A program made the position numbers and the translations under genes. A stretch of 6,354 nt of DNA from Deltaproteobacteria bacterium (GTDB lineage: Bacteria > Myxococcota > B64-G9). The notes beneath the pieces were generated by a model. It saw only the letters and a list, made by a program, of their open reading frames with translations, was not told the DNA's origin and did no database searches. The stretch spans positions 1 through 6,354 of the forward strand of contig JAUVAM010000250.1 in NCBI GenBank assembly GCA_030591745.1. The letters run 5' to 3'. Position 1 is the first letter of the stretch; each line of letters opens with the position of its first letter. Shown here piece after piece: positions 1-6,354 of this stretch.

Positions 1-137
1 CAATCAAGGCGGGGGGGGCCATTGGGGCCGTGCTGGAGCAAGGCAAGCCCAAAATCCTGGTCAACCTCAAAGCGGCCGAAGCGCAAGGTGCCAAGCTGGA
101 CGCGAGGTTGTTGCGTCTGGTAAGAATAGTGAATTGA
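1..137 (+). CDS. C-terminal fragment of a YfiR/DUF4154-like periplasmic protein (5' end outside window)
   Basis: Only the last ~44 codons are in the window, read in frame 3 and ending at TGA 135-137. The visible end contains ILVNLKAAEAQGAK followed by LDARLLRLVRIV. This resembles the C-terminus of YfiR-family (DUF4154) proteins, where a strand with a 'NL..A...GL' pattern is followed by a helix of the type 'SxLLxLAxIV'. Known family members are small periplasmic proteins; YfiR represses the membrane diguanylate cyclase YfiN/TpbB by binding its periplasmic domain. The stop is 10 bases before the first possible start of the next gene, so it is likely in the same operon as the chemosensory genes. 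The other two frames give low-complexity or unrecognisable peptides. Any signal peptide lies outside the window. The assignment rests on a short tail and could be wrong; the reading frame itself is fairly secure. Confidence 0.5.
   Translation, partial: IKAGGAIGAVLEQGKPKILVNLKAAEAQGAKLDARLLRLVRIVN
11..18. repeat. Homopolymer tract of eight G
   Basis: There are eight consecutive G bases inside the YfiR-like reading frame, coding for an Ala-Gly-Gly segment. The frame after the tract is the one that gives the family-like C-terminus. Tracts of this length can slip in replication or sequencing. Confidence 0.6.
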
Positions 138-142
138 ACCAC

Positions 143-153
143 AAAGGGTGGGA
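143..153 (+). promoter_or_regulatory. Ribosome-binding region that decides the start of the first PilZ-receiver gene
   Basis: AAAGGG (143-148) and GGGA (150-153) lie 6 to 11 bases ahead of the GTG at 160. They touch or overlap the alternative GTG at 148, which would have no usable spacer. This favours initiation at 160 over 148. Confidence 0.5.
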
Positions 154-159
154 AAACGA

Positions 160-915
160 GTGAACGATCATCCCGAAAACGGCTCATTAACCAAAAAGAG
201 AAAACACCCTCGCACCGTTGCCATTTTTAAGGTCTCTTACCGGGATGCCGAACGCTTGGCTGATTACACGGACAACCTCAGCGAATCCGGTCTCTTCATC
301 GCCACCGATCAGGTTCTGGCCAAAGGGGAGTCCATCGAATTCGAGATCTCTTTTCCCGGCCTGGTCAAGCCCATTCGACTCAAAGGCGAGGTTGCCTGGC
401 GGCGGACCCGGGGGTCTTTGAGCGACGACATGCCGGCAGGCGTCGGCGTGCAAATCCATTTCGACAACGACCTTGAGCGTCGCTGGCTAAAAGAGCTCCT
501 GGCCAAATTTTCGACTCAGAACCCTCAGACCGGACCAAGCCCGGCAAGGCCCTTCGTCATCCTGCTTGCAGAGGACAACCCGGCGATACGGGAGATGTTC
601 AGCAAGGCGCTGACAGAGGGCCTGGCCGACGACCACAAAGTCAAACTGCTGCAGGCGGAAGGCGCCCAAGAAGCCCAAGATCTCCTCCTCGAACAACATG
701 TGGACCTCTTGCTCATCGAGTACCGCATGTGCCGTAGTGAAGGGATAGATGTCCTAGAAAGCCTGGCTGCGGAGCAGAAGCGCCCCTCGGTGGTGGTGGT
801 GGGTGCCAACGACATAGAGAAAAAGAAAGCCCTGGAAGGTGGCGCCGATGTGTTTCTCAAAAGGCCCTTCCCCGCGAAAGGTCTTTTGGCCACCATCCGC
901 TCCTTGACTTCATAG
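160..915 (+). CDS. PilZ domain fused to a degenerate (pseudo-)receiver domain
   Basis: This is a two-domain cytoplasmic signalling protein of 252 codons including the stop (256 if the GTG at 148 is used; residues below count from 148). PilZ domain at about residues 16-120: the c-di-GMP-binding residues are all present, RKHPR (R18, R22) and NLSESG (N43, S45, G48). A short Pro-rich linker (124-135) leads to a receiver domain at about 136-252. The acidic pair E142/D143 is kept (LLAEDNP). The phosphoacceptor position reads LLIEYRM, with Glu191 in place of Asp; the conserved Ser/Thr is Gly219 (VVVVGAN); and the conserved Lys before Pro is Arg239 (FLKRPF). By receiver-family rules it should not be phosphorylated, and Glu may mimic the phosphorylated state. 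It is paralogous to the gene at 3489, which keeps all these residues. It is followed by a 42-base gap with a hairpin, then the MCP gene. The inferred role is a c-di-GMP-responsive adaptor for the chemosensory array; the output partner is unknown. Confidence 0.88.
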   Translation: MNDHPENGSLTKKRKHPRTVAIFKVSYRDAERLADYTDNLSESGLFIATDQVLAKGESIEFEISFPGLVKPIRLKGEVAWRRTRGSLSDDMPAGVGVQIHFDNDLERRWLKELLAKFSTQNPQTGPSPARPFVILLAEDNPAIREMFSKALTEGLADDHKVKLLQAEGAQEAQDLLLEQHVDLLLIEYRMCRSEGIDVLESLAAEQKRPSVVVVGANDIEKKKALEGGADVFLKRPFPAKGLLATIRSLTS

Positions 916-924
916 AACATCCGC

Positions 925-944
925 GCTGGCCCCAATGGGTCAGC
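925..944 (+). other. Intercistronic RNA hairpin upstream of the MCP ribosome-binding site
   Basis: GCTGGCCC (925-932) pairs with GGGTCAGC (937-944) across a CAAT loop: eight consecutive pairs, seven Watson-Crick and one G-U. There is no U-run after it, so it is not a normal intrinsic terminator. It ends four bases before the GAGG Shine-Dalgarno (949-952) of the MCP gene. It could set mRNA stability or processing, or adjust MCP translation. Confidence 0.6.
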
Positions 945-948
945 CGAC

Positions 949-952
949 GAGG
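949..952 (+). promoter_or_regulatory. Shine-Dalgarno of the MCP gene
   Basis: GAGG sits five bases ahead of ATG 958 and supports that start. It lies just downstream of the 925-944 hairpin. Confidence 0.65.
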
Positions 953-957
953 TTCCC

Positions 958-2619
958 ATGCTGCGAATTTTCAAGAACCTGTCTCTGGTCTGGAAGATGA
1001 CCGTCGTCTCGTCCGTACCCCTGGTCCTGGCGGCCATCGCCGTGATCAGTTACTTCCCCGCAAACGAACGCGACGTCCTGGAGAGCGGCCTTGAGGCCAA
1101 GATGCGCACCGTGGCCAACATGCTCTCTTTCAGCCTGGCACCCGCTGTTCAATTGCAGCAGCTCGCGGGCATGGAGGAGCTATTCGCCGGGGCCAAGCAA
1201 GACAAAGAATTGCTGGCCATTCGCGTTGAAGACTTGTCAAACAATCGGCTGACCGGCCTGGGGGACAAGGACATCGACACCCGCCTGCGTCCCGAATACG
1301 AAGATCAAATTCTCAGCTACGACGGCGATGTCCTCAACTTCGCCTATCAAATCAAAAACGAAGGCCAGCCCGTCGGCTTGCTCCGCTTGGCATACTCTCT
1401 GGAGGGGCACAATACCCAGGTTCGCAACATCTGGACCTTGGCCCTCCTTCTCAGCCTGGCCATCTACCTCATCGGCATCCTTGTCTCGGCCCTGATGGCT
1501 CGTTTCGTGGCAGCCCCCTTGATCAAAATGAAAGAGAATTTCGAAGGCATGGCCCGGGGCGATCTAAACCAACGAGTGCTCGTGGACAGATCCACGGACG
1601 AAATCGGCAGCTTGGCTACGGCCTTCAATCAATTGCTGCACCAATTGCAAGAACTCAACACACACGCACGTTACATCTCAGAGGGTGATCTGACCCATGA
1701 GTTGGATGGCGAGGGTGATCTGGTCATGGCATTCCACTCCATGACAGGTGCCTTGCAGGAATTGGGCATTCGCTTCAACGAAATGGCCCACTCCATCGAC
1801 GGCCGCACCTCGGACATCCTGGCCACCGCTCGCGAGCAAGAAGCCGGCTCCGCCCAACAAGCCGCCACCGTGTCCGAGCTGACGGCCACGACAGGCGAGC
1901 TGGCCGCCACGGCTCGACAAATCGCGGACAACGCAGAGAGCGTGTCTTCCGCGGCCGAAGCCGCGAACCAGACCGTGACGGAGGGTCGCAGGGCCCTGTC
2001 GTCGTTTGTCGAAAGTATCAACGCGATTCAGACGGGCAATGAGATCATCAACGACAACATCATGAGGCTCAACCGCCAGGTACAACAAATCGGCGGCATC
2101 ATCGACATCATTGATGGCGTCGCTGATCGCAGTGATCTCTTGGCCCTGAACGCCGCGCTTGAGGGGACCAAGGCCGGCGAAGCGGGCAAAGGATTTCTAC
2201 TGGTGGCGGCGGAAATGCGGCGACTTGCCGAGAACACCTTCAACTCGACGGCCGAGGTCAAGCAGCTCATCACCGAGGTAACAGAAGGCTCCAATGCCAC
2301 GGTCATGGCCACCGAAAGCGGCATGAAGGCGACCCTGCAAGGCGTATTGCGCGCCCAGGAAACCGAGGAATCATTCGAGCGCATTGAGCAAACCATCAGG
2401 GGAACCGCGCAAGCCGCCAAGCAGATCTCCGTGGCCACCCAACAACAACACACGGGGACGGACCAAATCGTGTCGGTACTCGGCGAGACTGAGGAAGTAT
2501 CCAAACAGGCGCTGGAAGGCATCCGGCAGACCACCCATGCGGTGGGCGAGCTGAGCCAGACTTCGACGGAGATGCGAGATCTGGTAAGCAAATACCGATT
2601 CTCCGCGGACCAGGGATGA
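958..2619 (+). CDS. Methyl-accepting chemotaxis protein (transmembrane chemoreceptor)
   Basis: This 553-residue inner-membrane receptor heads the chemosensory pathway. Order of parts: short cytoplasmic N-terminus with Lys/Arg; transmembrane segment 1 at about 12-32; periplasmic sensor region about 33-156; transmembrane segment 2 at about 157-180; HAMP at about 182-231 (APLIKMKENF, DEIGSLATAFN); a second HAMP-like unit at about 232-268 (ISEGDLTHEL, GDLVMAFHSM); then a long coiled-coil signalling domain to the C-terminus. The hairpin tip is recognisable (DLLALNAALEGTKAGE, then GKGFLLVAAEMRRLAE) but differs from the usual EAARAGE; Lys405 replaces the tip Arg. The periplasmic part has the CHASE8-like pattern 'LE.....VA.ML.FSLAPAV' and ends NEGQPVGLLRLAY, reminiscent of YfiN (inference). 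There is no NWETF-type CheR-docking pentapeptide; the protein ends SADQG. The stop codon overlaps the start of cheW, so the two are translationally coupled. The ligand cannot be told from the sequence. Confidence 0.95.
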   Translation: MLRIFKNLSLVWKMTVVSSVPLVLAAIAVISYFPANERDVLESGLEAKMRTVANMLSFSLAPAVQLQQLAGMEELFAGAKQDKELLAIRVEDLSNNRLTGLGDKDIDTRLRPEYEDQILSYDGDVLNFAYQIKNEGQPVGLLRLAYSLEGHNTQVRNIWTLALLLSLAIYLIGILVSALMARFVAAPLIKMKENFEGMARGDLNQRVLVDRSTDEIGSLATAFNQLLHQLQELNTHARYISEGDLTHELDGEGDLVMAFHSMTGALQELGIRFNEMAHSIDGRTSDILATAREQEAGSAQQAATVSELTATTGELAATARQIADNAESVSSAAEAANQTVTEGRRALSSFVESINAIQTGNEIINDNIMRLNRQVQQIGGIIDIIDGVADRSDLLALNAALEGTKAGEAGKGFLLVAAEMRRLAENTFNSTAEVKQLITEVTEGSNATVMATESGMKATLQGVLRAQETEESFERIEQTIRGTAQAAKQISVATQQQHTGTDQIVSVLGETEEVSKQALEGIRQTTHAVGELSQTSTEMRDLVSKYRFSADQG

Positions 2620-3092
2620 GCGGATCTAAACAAAAAACGGGCACAGAGGAATCTCAACTGTCCTTCATCTTTACCATCGGCAAGCAGGCCTTTGGACTTC
2701 CTCCTTCCACCGTCTTAGAAGTCCTGTCCGTCGCGGACACAACCCGCGTACCCTTCACCCCCGACTGGGTTGAAGGCGTCATCAGCGCCCGCGGCAAGGT
2801 GATCCCGGTCATCGATCTCATCGGATATTTCGGCATTGAGCAGGAACGCAAGGATGCTCGCACGCGCCTGATCCTCCTGGGCTCGGGTGACATCTCCTTC
2901 GGCATTGCCTGCGATCGCATTGTCGGGGTGGAGGAAATCGAAGCAAGCGCCATGGAAGAAACCATGAGTCACTTCCCAAAAGCCTTGCGCGATTGCAGCA
3001 AGGCCCAGGTCAAACGGGAAGATCTTCTGGTTGTGCTCTTGGACACCAAGGCCCTTTTGGAACAGTCCCGAGGCCGGGTGCAGGCGGGATAG
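2616..3092 (+). CDS. cheW: CheW adaptor protein
   Basis: This cytoplasmic scaffold, 158 residues, links receptors to CheA. The CheW fold spans about residues 14-148: LSFIFTIGKQAFGLP is the first strand pair; VLEVL and the TRVPFTPDWVEGV segment follow; then SARGKVIPVIDL carries the conserved Arg (R59, equivalent to the receptor/CheA-interface Arg in NLRG) ahead of the 'PVIDL' signature; SFGIACDRIVGV is the second subdomain; and LLVVLLDTKALL is the terminal strand and helix. Length is normal for CheW. The start ATG overlaps the MCP stop (ATGA), which indicates translational coupling with the receptor it serves. The usual Asn-Leu before Arg-Gly is Ser-Ala here, a mild deviation. It most likely serves the MCP and CheA encoded beside it. 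Confidence 0.95.
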   Translation: MSGSKQKTGTEESQLSFIFTIGKQAFGLPPSTVLEVLSVADTTRVPFTPDWVEGVISARGKVIPVIDLIGYFGIEQERKDARTRLILLGSGDISFGIACDRIVGVEEIEASAMEETMSHFPKALRDCSKAQVKREDLLVVLLDTKALLEQSRGRVQAG

Positions 3093-3095
3093 AAC

Positions 3096-3473
3096 ATGGA
3101 CCAGGAAGCGACAAAAAAAGAGCTATTGATCTTTGACGTGGGCGGCACCCATTTCGGCGCGGTGGTCGAAGGCCTGCATTCCATCGAATCCAAGGGCTGG
3201 ACCGATGCCATCGATCTGGGGCCTTTGTTGGGGCTGACCGCTCACTCGGGACGAAGAGTCCTGGTCATAGAGACCCAGGGTGGCCCGGTTGGAATCCGTG
3301 TCGATGACATCGCGTCTCAAATGATCAGCCAACACCTCGTCCATCCTGTCCCTCGGGCCCTGGCAGGATGGATGGCGGTACCCGCCATCAGCGGCATCAC
3401 CGTCGATCCGGAATACGGCATCATCCATGTACTGAACCTTAAAAAACTGGCAAGCTTGAATCCAGAACCCTGA
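3096..3473 (+). CDS. Short, internally deleted CheW-like protein (FrzB-like)
   Basis: At 125 residues this is shorter than a normal CheW. The N-terminal strand (LLIFDVGGTHFGAVVEGL, 10-27) and helix (HSIE) match CheW. The chain then passes almost directly to AIDLGPLLGL (38-47), the 'VIDL..LLGL' segment. The ~20 residues that normally contain 'P.aP.w..GviNLRG' and the receptor/CheA-interface Arg are missing. The second subdomain is intact: RRVLVIE (53-59), VGIRVDDI (65-72) and the C-terminal IIHVLNLKKLASL (109-121). Reading is open with no frameshift, so the gene looks designed rather than decayed. FrzB of the Myxococcus Frz system is a known CheW-like protein that similarly lacks CheA-binding parts and lets the receptor signal without joining ordinary arrays. 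By analogy this one may bind the MCP or CheA selectively. It starts 3 bases after cheW stops, with GGCGGGA just upstream. Confidence 0.85.
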   Translation: MDQEATKKELLIFDVGGTHFGAVVEGLHSIESKGWTDAIDLGPLLGLTAHSGRRVLVIETQGGPVGIRVDDIASQMISQHLVHPVPRALAGWMAVPAISGITVDPEYGIIHVLNLKKLASLNPEP

Positions 3474-3475
3474 GC

Positions 3476-3480
3476 GAGGA
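3476..3480 (+). promoter_or_regulatory. Shine-Dalgarno of the second PilZ-receiver gene
   Basis: GAGGA eight bases ahead of ATG 3489 confirms that start, which lies 15 bases after the upstream stop. Confidence 0.65.
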
Positions 3481-3488
3481 ACAAGTCA

Positions 3489-4283
3489 ATGGCGGGACAA
3501 AGGGACAATCGAAAGCATCCACGCATCGAGCTCATCCTCAAAGTCGACTACCCGAGTAGTGAGGATTTCCTCGCCGACTACACGGGCAACGCGAGCGAGA
3601 GTGGTTTGTTCATTGCGACCAACAAGGCCTTCGAGGCAGGAGAGGAGCTCACTTTCGACATCTCTTTCCCCGGCCTGCTCGATCCCATCCGCTGCCGAGC
3701 CAAGGTTCAATGGCGACGGAGCGGAGAAAGCGCAAGCGACGACGAGCCCGAAGGCATCGGCGTGGCCTTCGAATTCGACAGTCAAGACCAGGCTGATCGA
3801 ATCCGCGAACTGGTGACCAAACTCAATGCGGAGGCATATGAGGCCGCAGAGCAAAAAGACGCGCCCGAGCCCGACTCTTTTCGCGTCATCGTGGTTGAGG
3901 ACAACCCGCTCGTCCGTGAAATGCTGCGCTTTGCCGTCAAGAAGTTCCATAAAGCCAAGCTGGGCACCACCAGAAGCCTGGAGGTACAGGAAGCAGAAAA
4001 CGGGCAAGTCGCCTGGGAACAAATGCAAACCGCCCACTTTGACATGGCCATCGTCGACTTCTTCATGCCGGTGATGGATGGTCAGCAACTCATCAACCAC
4101 ATTCGCCGCGACGAAAGTATGAAGAACATGCCCGTCATCGTGGTCAGCGTCGGTGGCGACGAAGTGCGAAGAACGGTCTACGCAGAGGGTGCCGACCTCT
4201 TCCTGGACAAGCCTGTTGTTTTCCACCAATTGTTCGAGTCCATGCAAAAATTGCTGAGCCTGCCCAGCCGCAAGGAGCACTGA
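3489..4283 (+). CDS. PilZ domain fused to an intact receiver domain
   Basis: A 264-residue cytoplasmic response regulator with c-di-GMP and phosphorylation inputs. PilZ domain at about 6-112: RKHPR (R8, R12) and NASESG (N34, S36, G39) complete the c-di-GMP-binding signature. An acidic, Ala-rich linker (about 113-130) leads to a receiver at about 131-258. The receiver keeps every switch residue: E137/D138, phosphoacceptor D190 in AIVDFFMP, S220 (VIVVSVGG), and K241 before Pro (FLDKPV). A ~12-residue insertion (KKFHKAKLGTTRS) lies between the first helix and second strand; the paralog has a similar segment. PilZ domains of the two paralogs are about half identical by eye, indicating an old duplication. 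It most likely receives phosphate from the CheA encoded downstream. No DNA-binding or enzymatic domain is present, so output must be by protein interaction. It is one base from the next gene. Confidence 0.93.
   Translation: MAGQRDNRKHPRIELILKVDYPSSEDFLADYTGNASESGLFIATNKAFEAGEELTFDISFPGLLDPIRCRAKVQWRRSGESASDDEPEGIGVAFEFDSQDQADRIRELVTKLNAEAYEAAEQKDAPEPDSFRVIVVEDNPLVREMLRFAVKKFHKAKLGTTRSLEVQEAENGQVAWEQMQTAHFDMAIVDFFMPVMDGQQLINHIRRDESMKNMPVIVVSVGGDEVRRTVYAEGADLFLDKPVVFHQLFESMQKLLSLPSRKEH
4272..4277 (+). promoter_or_regulatory. Shine-Dalgarno of the CheY-like gene
   Basis: AAGGAG lies inside the end of the PilZ-receiver gene, seven bases ahead of ATG 4285. It is the best ribosome-binding site in the window, suggesting the CheY-like protein is made at high level. 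Confidence 0.75.
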
Positions 4284-4284
4284 C

Positions 4285-4659
4285 ATGCCTGAACGCACTA
4301 TTTTTCTGGTGGACGACAGCGAGCTGATCTTGTCGATGGTGTCAGCCGCCTTGCAGACCGCAGGATATAAGGTACGTGCCCTGGCGCGCTGGGAAGCCTT
4401 GAATGCCGAATTGGAGCAAAGCAAACCTGACATGATCCTGATGGACATCAATATGCCGGAAATGACGGGTGACTCCGCCTTGAGCCTTTTTCGAGAGGCC
4501 AGGGGATTGGAAGACGTACCCATCTATCTCTATTCCGACATCGACATCCGGGCCCTGGAGCGACGCGCGGAGGCCTGTGGTGCTGACGGCTTCATTTCCA
4601 AAGGATGGGGCATTGAGCGGCTCATGAGCGCAGTCGAGCAAGTACTGGCCGGCGACTGA
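4285..4659 (+). CDS. Single-domain CheY-like response regulator
   Basis: At 124 residues this is a stand-alone receiver with no output domain. Switch residues are present: D10/D11 (FLVDDSE), phosphoacceptor D54 (ILMDINMPEMTG), S84 (YLYSDID) and K106 (FISKGW). The Lys is followed by Gly-Trp, not the usual Pro, so the loop after strand 5 differs from classic CheY. It starts one base after the PilZ-receiver gene and is followed by the CheA gene, so CheA is the expected phosphodonor. It could be the diffusible output, or a phosphate sink competing with the PilZ-receiver protein; the sequence does not decide. The flagellar-switch-binding surface of CheY cannot be judged by eye. Confidence 0.93.
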   Translation: MPERTIFLVDDSELILSMVSAALQTAGYKVRALARWEALNAELEQSKPDMILMDINMPEMTGDSALSLFREARGLEDVPIYLYSDIDIRALERRAEACGADGFISKGWGIERLMSAVEQVLAGD

Positions 4660-4690
4660 TTCGGCGCAGCGAGAAGAACGGGCGACCCGC

Positions 4691-6354
4691 ATGGATGCGG
4701 ACAAAATAAGAGCAACCTTCTTAGAAAAATTCAGACAGGTTGTCTACGAACGCAGCCAGACTCTCAGCGAGCAGTATGAAAAGCTGATCGATGGAGCTGA
4801 CGAGGCGATAGCCGACGCGCTGATGCGCGAGTTGCATACCCTGAAAGGCGAATCCCGCATGATGGGTTTCGCAGCGGCCGGACAGGTTGTGCATGCGCTC
4901 GAAGACGCCGTCAAGCAGACAAGAGAAGACAAGTTTCGTCAACTGCCCCAACTTCGCGAGGTCTTCTTTGAGGTCTTGGACTCGGTGGCCGCCATCGCGG
5001 GGCAGGGTGCTTCTCCCGATCCGGAACCCATCTGCCATCGCATTGCCGCCGCTTTGGAGGGCAAAGCCCCCAAGCCTGCCGCAAAAAAGCCCAAGCCGAA
5101 AAAAGACAAAGCCCAGGGTCCAGAACCCCGGAAGACCCAGACGAAGGAAGCAGCACCAGGGCCGAAGAAAGACCCCTCCTCCTTTGAATTACCAAGCATG
5201 GTGCACATCAGCGGTCAGGATCTGGACCGATTGAGTGACTCGATCAGCGATCTATTCAGCACCTATTTACAAATTCAGGATTTGGGTAAAGGCATCACTC
5301 GCCTGCGAAGCCACGCAAGTCCTCATCAGGCCAGAGACAAGCGCAAGGTGCTGGATGCCGACATGCTGATGAATTCGCTGCAGATCCTGGACCGTGATCT
5401 GGCAGCCTTCCATCGCAAATATCGCGAACGCACCTTGACCATGGCCACCGAATTGGATCTGGTCCTGGATCAGGTTCGCCAAATCCGTCTCCTGCCCATC
5501 ACGACCTTGTTCAATGTCTACGCTTCGGCTGCCCGAGATCTCGCCCGGGCAGTAGGCAAACAGCTCCAAGTGCGAATCGAGGGCGAGACCACCATGGTGG
5601 ACCGCAGCATCCTGGATGCACTGGGCGACATGCTCCTGCATCTCATTCGCAATGCCATCGATCATGGGCTGGAGGAAGGGCCCAAGCGACTGGGGCAAAA
5701 CAAGCCTGAGCGCGGCAGCTTGTGGCTGCGCGCACAGGTAGTCAACGACCGCATCCGCATCGAGGTTGAAGACGACGGCCGAGGCATCGACCCTGGACAG
5801 ATCCGAAAAATCGCCCTGCGCAAAGGCGTCATCAAAAACCATGAATTTGAAACCCTGACAAACCAAGAATCCATCGAGCTCATCTTTGCCCCAGGATTCT
5901 CGACCGCAGAAAAGACGACGGAGTTATCAGGCCGCGGCGTCGGCATGGACGTGGTGCGGGACCGACTTCAGGACCTGGGCGGTGCCATCTATGTGGACTC
6001 AACCCCCGGCCAAGGCACTCGATTCTCCATTGAGCTTCCCACCACGGTAGCCATCGCCCGAGTCGTAATGTTCAAGGCGGCAGGTCAAACCTTCGCCCTG
6101 CTGGCGACCTTCGTTCGGCGGGTAGAGCGCATTTCGACGCAGTCCTTGCTGGAGACATCCGGGGGCAGAGCCCTGACCGTGCCCGAAGGCACCATCAGCG
6201 CAGCCCATGCCAACGAACTGTTGCGGCTGGGAGCGGCTCGTTCCGATAATGAGCACACACCCGTCTTGTTGTTGGAACATGGAGATCGTCGCATCGCCTT
6301 GTTGGTCGATGAACTGATTGGCGAACAGGAGTTGACCATTAAGCCATTCAGTCC
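4691..6354 (+). CDS. cheA: CheA-type chemotaxis histidine kinase (3' end outside window)
   Basis: The frame is open from ATG 4691 to the right edge, giving 554 residues. HPt (P1) domain at about 1-120, with phosphorylated His49 in LHTLKGESRMMGF. A Lys/Pro/Ala-rich linker (about 123-165) follows directly, with no room for a P2 CheY-docking domain. The dimerisation region is at about 168-270, ending VRQIRLLPITTLF. ATPase domain about 271-450: N-box HLIRNAIDHGLE (H317, N321), G1 box DDGRGID (361-367), FAPGFST (399-404), G2 box GRGVGMDVV (414-422), and TPGQGTRFSIELP. The CheW-like P5 domain begins near 450 (VVMFKAAGQTFALLATFVRRV) and is cut in ALLVDELIGEQE. All catalytic residues I can check are present. 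There is no better start upstream in frame; the Shine-Dalgarno is weak (GAGAAG 4671-4676, 14 bases away). Whether a receiver follows P5, as in FrzE, cannot be seen. Confidence 0.96.
   Translation, partial: MDADKIRATFLEKFRQVVYERSQTLSEQYEKLIDGADEAIADALMRELHTLKGESRMMGFAAAGQVVHALEDAVKQTREDKFRQLPQLREVFFEVLDSVAAIAGQGASPDPEPICHRIAAALEGKAPKPAAKKPKPKKDKAQGPEPRKTQTKEAAPGPKKDPSSFELPSMVHISGQDLDRLSDSISDLFSTYLQIQDLGKGITRLRSHASPHQARDKRKVLDADMLMNSLQILDRDLAAFHRKYRERTLTMATELDLVLDQVRQIRLLPITTLFNVYASAARDLARAVGKQLQVRIEGETTMVDRSILDALGDMLLHLIRNAIDHGLEEGPKRLGQNKPERGSLWLRAQVVNDRIRIEVEDDGRGIDPGQIRKIALRKGVIKNHEFETLTNQESIELIFAPGFSTAEKTTELSGRGVGMDVVRDRLQDLGGAIYVDSTPGQGTRFSIELPTTVAIARVVMFKAAGQTFALLATFVRRVERISTQSLLETSGGRALTVPEGTISAAHANELLRLGAARSDNEHTPVLLLEHGDRRIALLVDELIGEQELTIKPFS

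Follow-up and report, generated by a model that had tools for sequence, protein, structure and literature searches.

Paired PilZ–receiver proteins, one with a conserved pseudo-receiver, in a predicted chemosensory operon of Myxococcota

Why should one chemosensory gene set carry two similar PilZ–receiver proteins, only one of which has a phosphorylatable receiver? The question is raised by a 6,354-nucleotide stretch of DNA (contig JAUVAM010000250.1 of assembly GCA_030591745.1, from a Deltaproteobacteria bacterium of the Myxococcota), which we refer to in its entirety as the window; all window coordinates given here are on the + strand. A first-pass annotation of the sequence had placed two PilZ–receiver paralogues, here A and B, around a block of genes for a methyl-accepting chemotaxis protein (MCP), CheW and a CheW-like protein (positions 160–4283), and gene order and Pfam domains bear this out. 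Among PilZ proteins with a place in chemotaxis, MapZ acts on CheR. We find that A carries a pseudo-receiver that is maintained under purifying selection, and that A occurs together with the operon. The natural reading of the gene set is a predicted chemosensory pathway with regulators of the cyclic di-GMP (c-di-GMP) type. Our tentative interpretation, which we hold to be somewhat less than evenly probable, is that this operon has a non-flagellar (alternative-function) output, in which B would read both phosphate and c-di-GMP and A, independent of phosphate, would either partner B or compete with it at a common target.

An intact receiver and a conserved pseudo-receiver

Gene A (160..915) begins with a GTG that is also the start codon in the closest relative, locus L006, and encodes a PilZ domain (residues 13–115; Pfam PilZ, E = 8e-11) followed by a receiver (residues 134–246; Response_reg, E = 5.7e-14). 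Gene B (3489..4283) has the same domain order (E = 6.3e-12 and 7.2e-19) with an intact receiver, and both domains exceed the Pfam cut-offs in both proteins. With the NCBIfam model TIGR02266, B scores 71.5 bits and A 61.7 bits, below the cut-off of 68.7. Compared as whole proteins, A and B are 34% identical (BLASTP, E = 8e-48); their PilZ domains share 54 of 104 aligned residues (52%; score 264, compared with a maximum of 29 in 300 shuffles) and their receivers 31 of 122 (25%; score 116, maximum 34 in 300 shuffles). The earlier estimate of about half-identical PilZ domains therefore stands, as does the report of a complete c-di-GMP-binding signature, RxxxR plus NxSxxG, in both paralogues (R14/R18 and N39/S41/G44 in A; R8/R12 and N34/S36/G39 in B). 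Receiver-like chains are among the best 50 fold matches of the predicted structure of A (pLDDT 74, pTM 0.52), which does not resolve the PilZ–receiver arrangement, and receivers are among the best 60 of 296 matches in a profile search with B.

The two receivers part ways at the residues used for phosphorylation. In B the set is complete (E137 and D138, D190, S220 and K241). In the receiver of A the acid pair remains, but Glu (E187) replaces the Asp, Gly (G215) the Ser/Thr and Arg (R235) the Lys. At the phospho-acceptor site (codon 718..720, aligned to D190 of B), Glu is present in 14 of 15 A rows and Lys in the remaining one (P0009); Gly at the Ser/Thr site (802..804) and Arg at the Lys site (862..864) occur in 15/15. 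The corresponding residue of B, the predicted phospho-acceptor D190 (4056..4058), is Asp in all five operon B rows and in 56/56 B-like database rows. The A rows comprise the window, four loci and ten database proteins, of which P0003 and P0008 duplicate the genes of L126 and L124; the database proteins are 12 matches less P0011, which lies outside the A clade and has Asp, Ser and Lys (D/S/K) at the three sites, and P0012, a PhoB. The B-like database set is 62 matches less P0061 and P0070–P0074. As the A rows were collected by similarity to A, their uniformity partly reflects how they were chosen, and class-wide rows serve as a check: solo PilZ–receiver proteins of the same class keep the Asp in 15 of 16 cases, the exception being L121, which has Lys.

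The first-pass annotation had called one receiver live and one dead. For A the latter word is correct, because the phosphorylatable Asp is gone, and it can be sharpened, given that the change is specifically from Asp to Glu and is conserved. Thus B is predicted to be capable of switching by phosphate, and A to lack the Asp for it. Two solo receivers outside the A clade, both in genome G004, are also degenerate (L121, 8157–8957, K/G/Q; L118, 5061–5939, D/G/R), which indicates that pseudo-receivers arose more than once.

In a tree of 104 rows, including 12 further Myxococcota rows, A forms a single clade of 14 rows (support 100/100) on a long stem (1.22), and the tree program flags the meeting of long branches. 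B sits far from A among solo PilZ–receiver proteins, and the operon B rows do not form one clade. We therefore rejected the idea that A is a recent duplicate of B. Three degenerate positions and a long stem would also be expected if A were a functionless duplicate in decay; this explanation is largely refuted and we give it almost no credence, as the replacements are old and shared among A proteins, the ratio of non-synonymous to synonymous substitution rates (dN/dS) of the receiver between the window and L006 is 0.22 for A (0.19 for B), and the four A genes have no internal stop codon. Given the conserved Glu, Gly and Arg (E/G/R) and the fully supported clade, we discarded the pseudogene as a candidate. 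The A receiver is under purifying selection and is a maintained pseudo-receiver.

Could the fixed Glu mimic phospho-Asp? A would then be a locked output, constitutively in the ‘phosphorylated state’, that opposes or titrates an unphosphorylated and active B, the unphosphorylated state being the active one in PixA (MXAN_1087) of Myxococcus xanthus. The prevalence of Glu among A rows fits such a role, and passages of PMC8316039 report that PixA D180N is functional and that D180E abolishes function, so that in a PixA-type family a Glu state is not functionally equivalent to an Asp state, and the type of residue that A has fixed matters. However, one A row has Lys at this site, and the relay residues are Gly and Arg in every row, which makes it doubtful that A truly imitates the active state. 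We consider a locked output of this type unlikely.

Association of A with the operon

The class of the closest relative, an uncultured one, is represented by nine draft genomes and the phylum by 195; the searches of the 195 genomes scored only 13, or at most 17, candidates per genome. Matches of the A type were found in four of the nine class genomes and four of the 195 phylum genomes (E = 2e-114 to 7e-94), and the next-best match (E = 2e-73) has an intact receiver. The operon-type MCP sensor was found in the same four of 195 genomes (E = 1e-88 to 1e-78; next best, 2e-13). A thus accompanies the operon in 4/4 operon genomes and is found in 0/5 of the other class genomes (naive exact probability, 1 in 126). 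The five genomes that lack the operon do have PilZ–receiver proteins, nine of which were tabulated, each with D/S/K. Conservation in relatives was one of the two points on which the first-pass annotation had staked its interpretation, and the pair is conserved; the operon search with tabulated receiver integrity that it had proposed returned one intact and one degenerate receiver in all four operon genomes. In an rpoB tree, three of the four genomes with the operon fail to form a group (a minimum of 3 changes, at least 2 of them forced). A is clearly coupled to the operon, although the number of draft genomes behind this is small.

Gene order is similar across the operons. The closest relative, L006, comes from a metagenome-assembled ‘Deltaproteobacteria bacterium’ of the Myxococcota, and its B is 96% identical to that of the window. 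Its genes run TonB receptor, unknown gene, YfiR, A, MCP, CheW, short CheW, B, CheY, CheA, CheB, CheR and CheY2. L001 has YfiR, A, MCP, CheW, short CheW, B, CheY and CheA before the contig ends, and L126 has A, MCP, CheW, short CheW, B, CheY, CheA, CheB, CheR, CheY2 and YfiR. The operon of G004 (L119) runs MCP, CheW, short CheW, B, CheA, CheB, CheR and YfiR, with no CheY match, and A lies on a separate contig (L124, 8096–12412) between a DUF4388 gene and a gene for a Ser/Thr kinase with a PEGA domain. The described bracketing therefore holds for the window and for the three of four genomes that have A beside the MCP gene, and is not strict. The neighbours of A in G004 are a possible hint at its partners.

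The displaced A of G004 also suits another explanation, in which A and B act as separate outputs, each on its own target, share little besides an operon and are not paired, leaving A free to act outside the pathway. Solo PilZ–receiver proteins are many in the Myxococcota, and B falls among them in the tree, distant from A. On the other hand, A, even where unlinked, is confined within the class to operon genomes. Separate outputs seem to us possible, if rather improbable.

Two further observations concern PilZ–receiver pairs. The longest contig is 40873 bases for both P0006 (an A) and P0016 (a B), perhaps a further linked pair. At L130 (7198–8783), tandem PilZ–receiver genes are both intact and have no MCP or CheA match nearby in the fetched stretch; PilZ–receiver pairs thus occur outside the operon too.

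Predicted input and output of the pathway

The window holds one co-directional set on the + strand, with intergenic gaps from the YfiR gene to the CheA gene of 22, 42, −4, 3, 15, 1 and 31 nucleotides. The earlier coordinates are correct, and the operon extends beyond them on both sides. Upstream of A, and absent from the first-pass annotation, is the end of a gene for a YfiR/HmsC-like periplasmic protein, cut by the window edge to its C-terminal 44 residues (3..137; PF13689, E = 4.4e-6, 27.3 bits compared with a cut-off of 24.9). A is followed by the MCP gene (958..2619; HAMP, residues 179–232, E = 1.4e-12; signalling domain, residues 331–513, MCPsignal, E = 3.5e-30), for which fold prediction gives a PAS-like periplasmic domain flanked by two long helices. 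Next come CheW (2616..3092; PF01584, E = 3.9e-28) and a short CheW-like protein that covers only positions 52–135 of the 138 of the CheW profile (3096..3473; PF01584, E = 3.6e-6). Downstream of B are a CheY-like single receiver (4285..4659; Response_reg, E = 1e-20) and CheA, with Pfam matches to Hpt, ATPase and CheW domains (4691..6354, cut by the window end); the CheA of L006 has 746 amino acids and an additional C-terminal receiver (Response_reg, E = 6.1e-25). The short CheW-like protein is retained next to the full CheW in the window and in all four operons. A scan of the window for sigma-70-like promoters, which did not address other promoter types, found none (1.7 expected by chance).

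On the input side, a YfiR-like gene lies at one end of each of the four operons, the upstream end in two cases and the opposite end in the others, and each protein exceeds the PF13689 cut-off and starts with a signal-peptide-like sequence, as judged by eye. The YfiR gene of L006 is full length (200 amino acids; PF13689, E = 9.2e-13) and its product is 95% identical to the window fragment. For L006 and L001, the sole NCBIfam match at E ≤ 0.001 is the YfiR-like model NF053591, below its cut-off; when PDB sequences were searched with the L006 protein, the two matches were attributable to chance. The N termini of five MCPs match NF053592, a model of YfiR-like protein-associated sensor kinases (E = 3e-15 to 2e-9), with a near full-length match in four and one starting at position 75 in L119; none reaches the cut-off. 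Much of this score is HAMP; with HAMP removed, E is 6e-5 for L126, 0.0016 for the window and 0.0055 for L001, with no match for L119. The predicted fold of the MCP sensor (six sequences, pLDDT 80) has one PAS-like domain between the two helices. Among its best 50 fold matches, WalK and CitA are nearest, two are McpB models, an orthologue of LapD ranks twelfth and none is YfiN; a profile search with the sensor gave CitA and DcuS at E = 0.09–0.27.

Genes of this kind are not restricted to the operons. We found 14 YfiR matches in six of the nine class genomes, four of them within operons. Four of the non-operon matches adjoin a gene that weakly matches the MCP query and is sensor-kinase-like in appearance. 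At L153, L154, L155 and L159, a well-matched YfiR (E = 1e-37 to 7e-42) is directly next to a gene resembling a membrane sensor, and L154 and L159 also have a TonB-like barrel; this is an ordinary YfiR–sensor layout in the same genomes. Upstream of the L006 operon (11–5997) lie a TonB-receptor barrel, a periplasmic binding protein, a full TonB-dependent receptor and, directly before YfiR, a 290-amino-acid gene without a family that is lipoprotein-like by eye; these genes may supply the signal. A C-terminal site of YfiR has Leu or Met in L006 and L126 and Phe in L001 and L119, and the MCPs split alike (a VQxQQ compared with a VDAAA stretch), through matched change or common descent.

On the output side, FliM was found in 0/4 operon genomes and in two of the five other class genomes. 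We rejected a flagellar pathway on this basis, although weakly, because the genomes are drafts. PilT-family matches above the cut-off are present in all four operon genomes, which also have 10–23 GGDEF matches each. Multidomain response regulators in the cluster are A, B and the receiver on CheA, and the CheR of L006 (503 amino acids) has sub-threshold TPR-like stretches.

Together, these features suggest a route from periplasm to output. The YfiR-like protein may gate the MCP by acting on the PAS-like periplasmic domain of the latter, much as YfiR acts on YfiN, a step to which gene neighbourhood and weak homology point. From their families, the MCP, CheW and the short CheW would control CheA, CheB and CheR would adapt the receptor, and CheA would phosphorylate CheY and the receiver of B. 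As a PixA-type protein, B might read phosphate and c-di-GMP together. A, with its c-di-GMP signature retained and its receiver fixed as E/G/R, would not be switched by Asp phosphorylation, and may be a partner or competitor of B set by c-di-GMP. Their common target would probably be cell-polarity or type IV pilus machinery for surface motility. If this is true, nature has put two similar regulators, only one of them switchable by phosphate, under a single sensory array, and receptor input and c-di-GMP input should be separable by experiment. A more specific version, which we put forward as a doubtful possibility, is that the array output is a matched pair, one member phosphorylation-gated and the other E/G/R-locked, that dimerizes or competes to compare array activity with c-di-GMP under a YfiR-gated receptor. 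Such a pair would imply that parts known from making c-di-GMP have been rewired into a pathway that reads it.

Several observations weigh against the proposed route. Without HAMP, the window MCP sensor scores best to another NCBIfam model, YtjB. Matches to CHASE8 are all below the cut-off (E = 3.9e-5 for L126, 1.5e-4 for L001 and 0.077 for the window, with none for L119), and AAVVF, the published YfiR-binding motif, was not seen by eye in an alignment of four MCPs. For six of the ten non-operon YfiR matches, the fetched sequence of roughly 3.4 kb contains nothing that matches the MCP, which indicates that YfiR does not go with MCPs exclusively. The TPR matches of the L006 CheR (TPR_16, 1.6e-6; TPR_2, 3.3e-5), scanned in L006 only, are below the Pfam cut-offs. 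A is unlinked to the operon in one of four operon genomes, and the genomes are few and incomplete, with the rpoB match missing in G002.

The role of c-di-GMP is also in question. The full PilZ signature is kept in 15/15 A rows and in four of five operon B rows, the exception being that of G004 (L119), which has Gly in place of the motif Ser and whose c-di-GMP binding is therefore doubtful. According to passages of PMC8316039, PixA with its c-di-GMP motif blocked (R9A) still restores motility, so that c-di-GMP may not be the driver of proteins such as A and B. Both points count against our interpretation and would suit PilZ domains that are structural only, with B regulated by phosphorylation alone and c-di-GMP without a regulatory part. 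The near-complete retention of the signature and the in vitro binding of c-di-GMP by PixA (PMC8316039, in part) argue otherwise, and we judge purely structural PilZ domains very improbable.

Comparison with known systems

The first-pass annotation knew of no described system with this paired layout, and our searches of full-text, open-licence literature likewise found no description of a PilZ–receiver pair in a chemosensory operon among the matches listed. The nearest single protein is PixA, which binds c-di-GMP and, in the same passages of PMC8316039, is required for unipolar MglA and correct reversals. A and B resemble it in having PilZ before the receiver, RxxxR and a length of about 250 amino acids. 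Myxococcus homologues (L007 and others), equated with PixA by residue numbering, have Arg 9 and Asp 180 at the published positions, and B is 36–37% identical to them. Both A and B have RxxxR and [D/N]xSxxG in PilZ followed by a C-terminal receiver; B has the phosphorylatable receiver of the PixA type and A does not, so that A is a derived relative rather than a PixA. Neither is a one-to-one orthologue, as the Myxococcaceae proteins form their own group in the tree, with A and B in another part. A departs from PixA in its conserved E/G/R pseudo-receiver, and both A and B do so in being encoded within a chemosensory operon. If our interpretation is right, A would be a naturally fixed Asp-to-Glu pseudo-receiver where the same laboratory change removes function in PixA.

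The input side resembles YfiBNR of Pseudomonas aeruginosa, in which, according to PMC3375315, a YfiR-like periplasmic protein is encoded with a PAS-like, HAMP-containing membrane protein whose PAS domain was modelled on CitA. YfiR is recognizable here by PF13689, whereas CHASE8 stays below its cut-off, AAVVF is missing, the other sensor matches are sub-cut-off and the output here consists of an MCP and a complete set of che genes. One sentence of PMC3375315 allows the YfiN output to be replaced by MCP domains; the idea of a YfiR–MCP module is thus not new, and we do not claim membership. If true, the present case would extend that module, with MCP output so far resting on that sentence, to a complete chemosensory operon.

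The operon resembles the alternative-function pathways with CheR–TPR of PMC3447774 in its CheB, its multidomain receivers, its CheA with a receiver and the negative search for a flagellar switch gene in the draft genomes, and the sub-cut-off TPR-like stretches of the L006 CheR may fit them too; a difference is that the abstract of PMC3447774 does not list PilZ among the output domains, and the word has 0 occurrences in that paper. The Cle proteins of Caulobacter are, like the pair here, receivers (CheY-like) that act as c-di-GMP effectors on chemotaxis (PMC5677366). Unlike A and B, they bind c-di-GMP through a C-terminal Arg-rich extension and target the flagellar switch; their activation needs c-di-GMP and not phosphorylation, a precedent for the arm represented by A. 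MapZ of P. aeruginosa and PilZ-bearing chemoreceptors likewise couple c-di-GMP reading by PilZ to chemotaxis (PMC6370697, PMC6454048 and PMC6406031), through an adaptor or a receptor domain, whereas the operon described here carries a pair of PilZ–receiver proteins.

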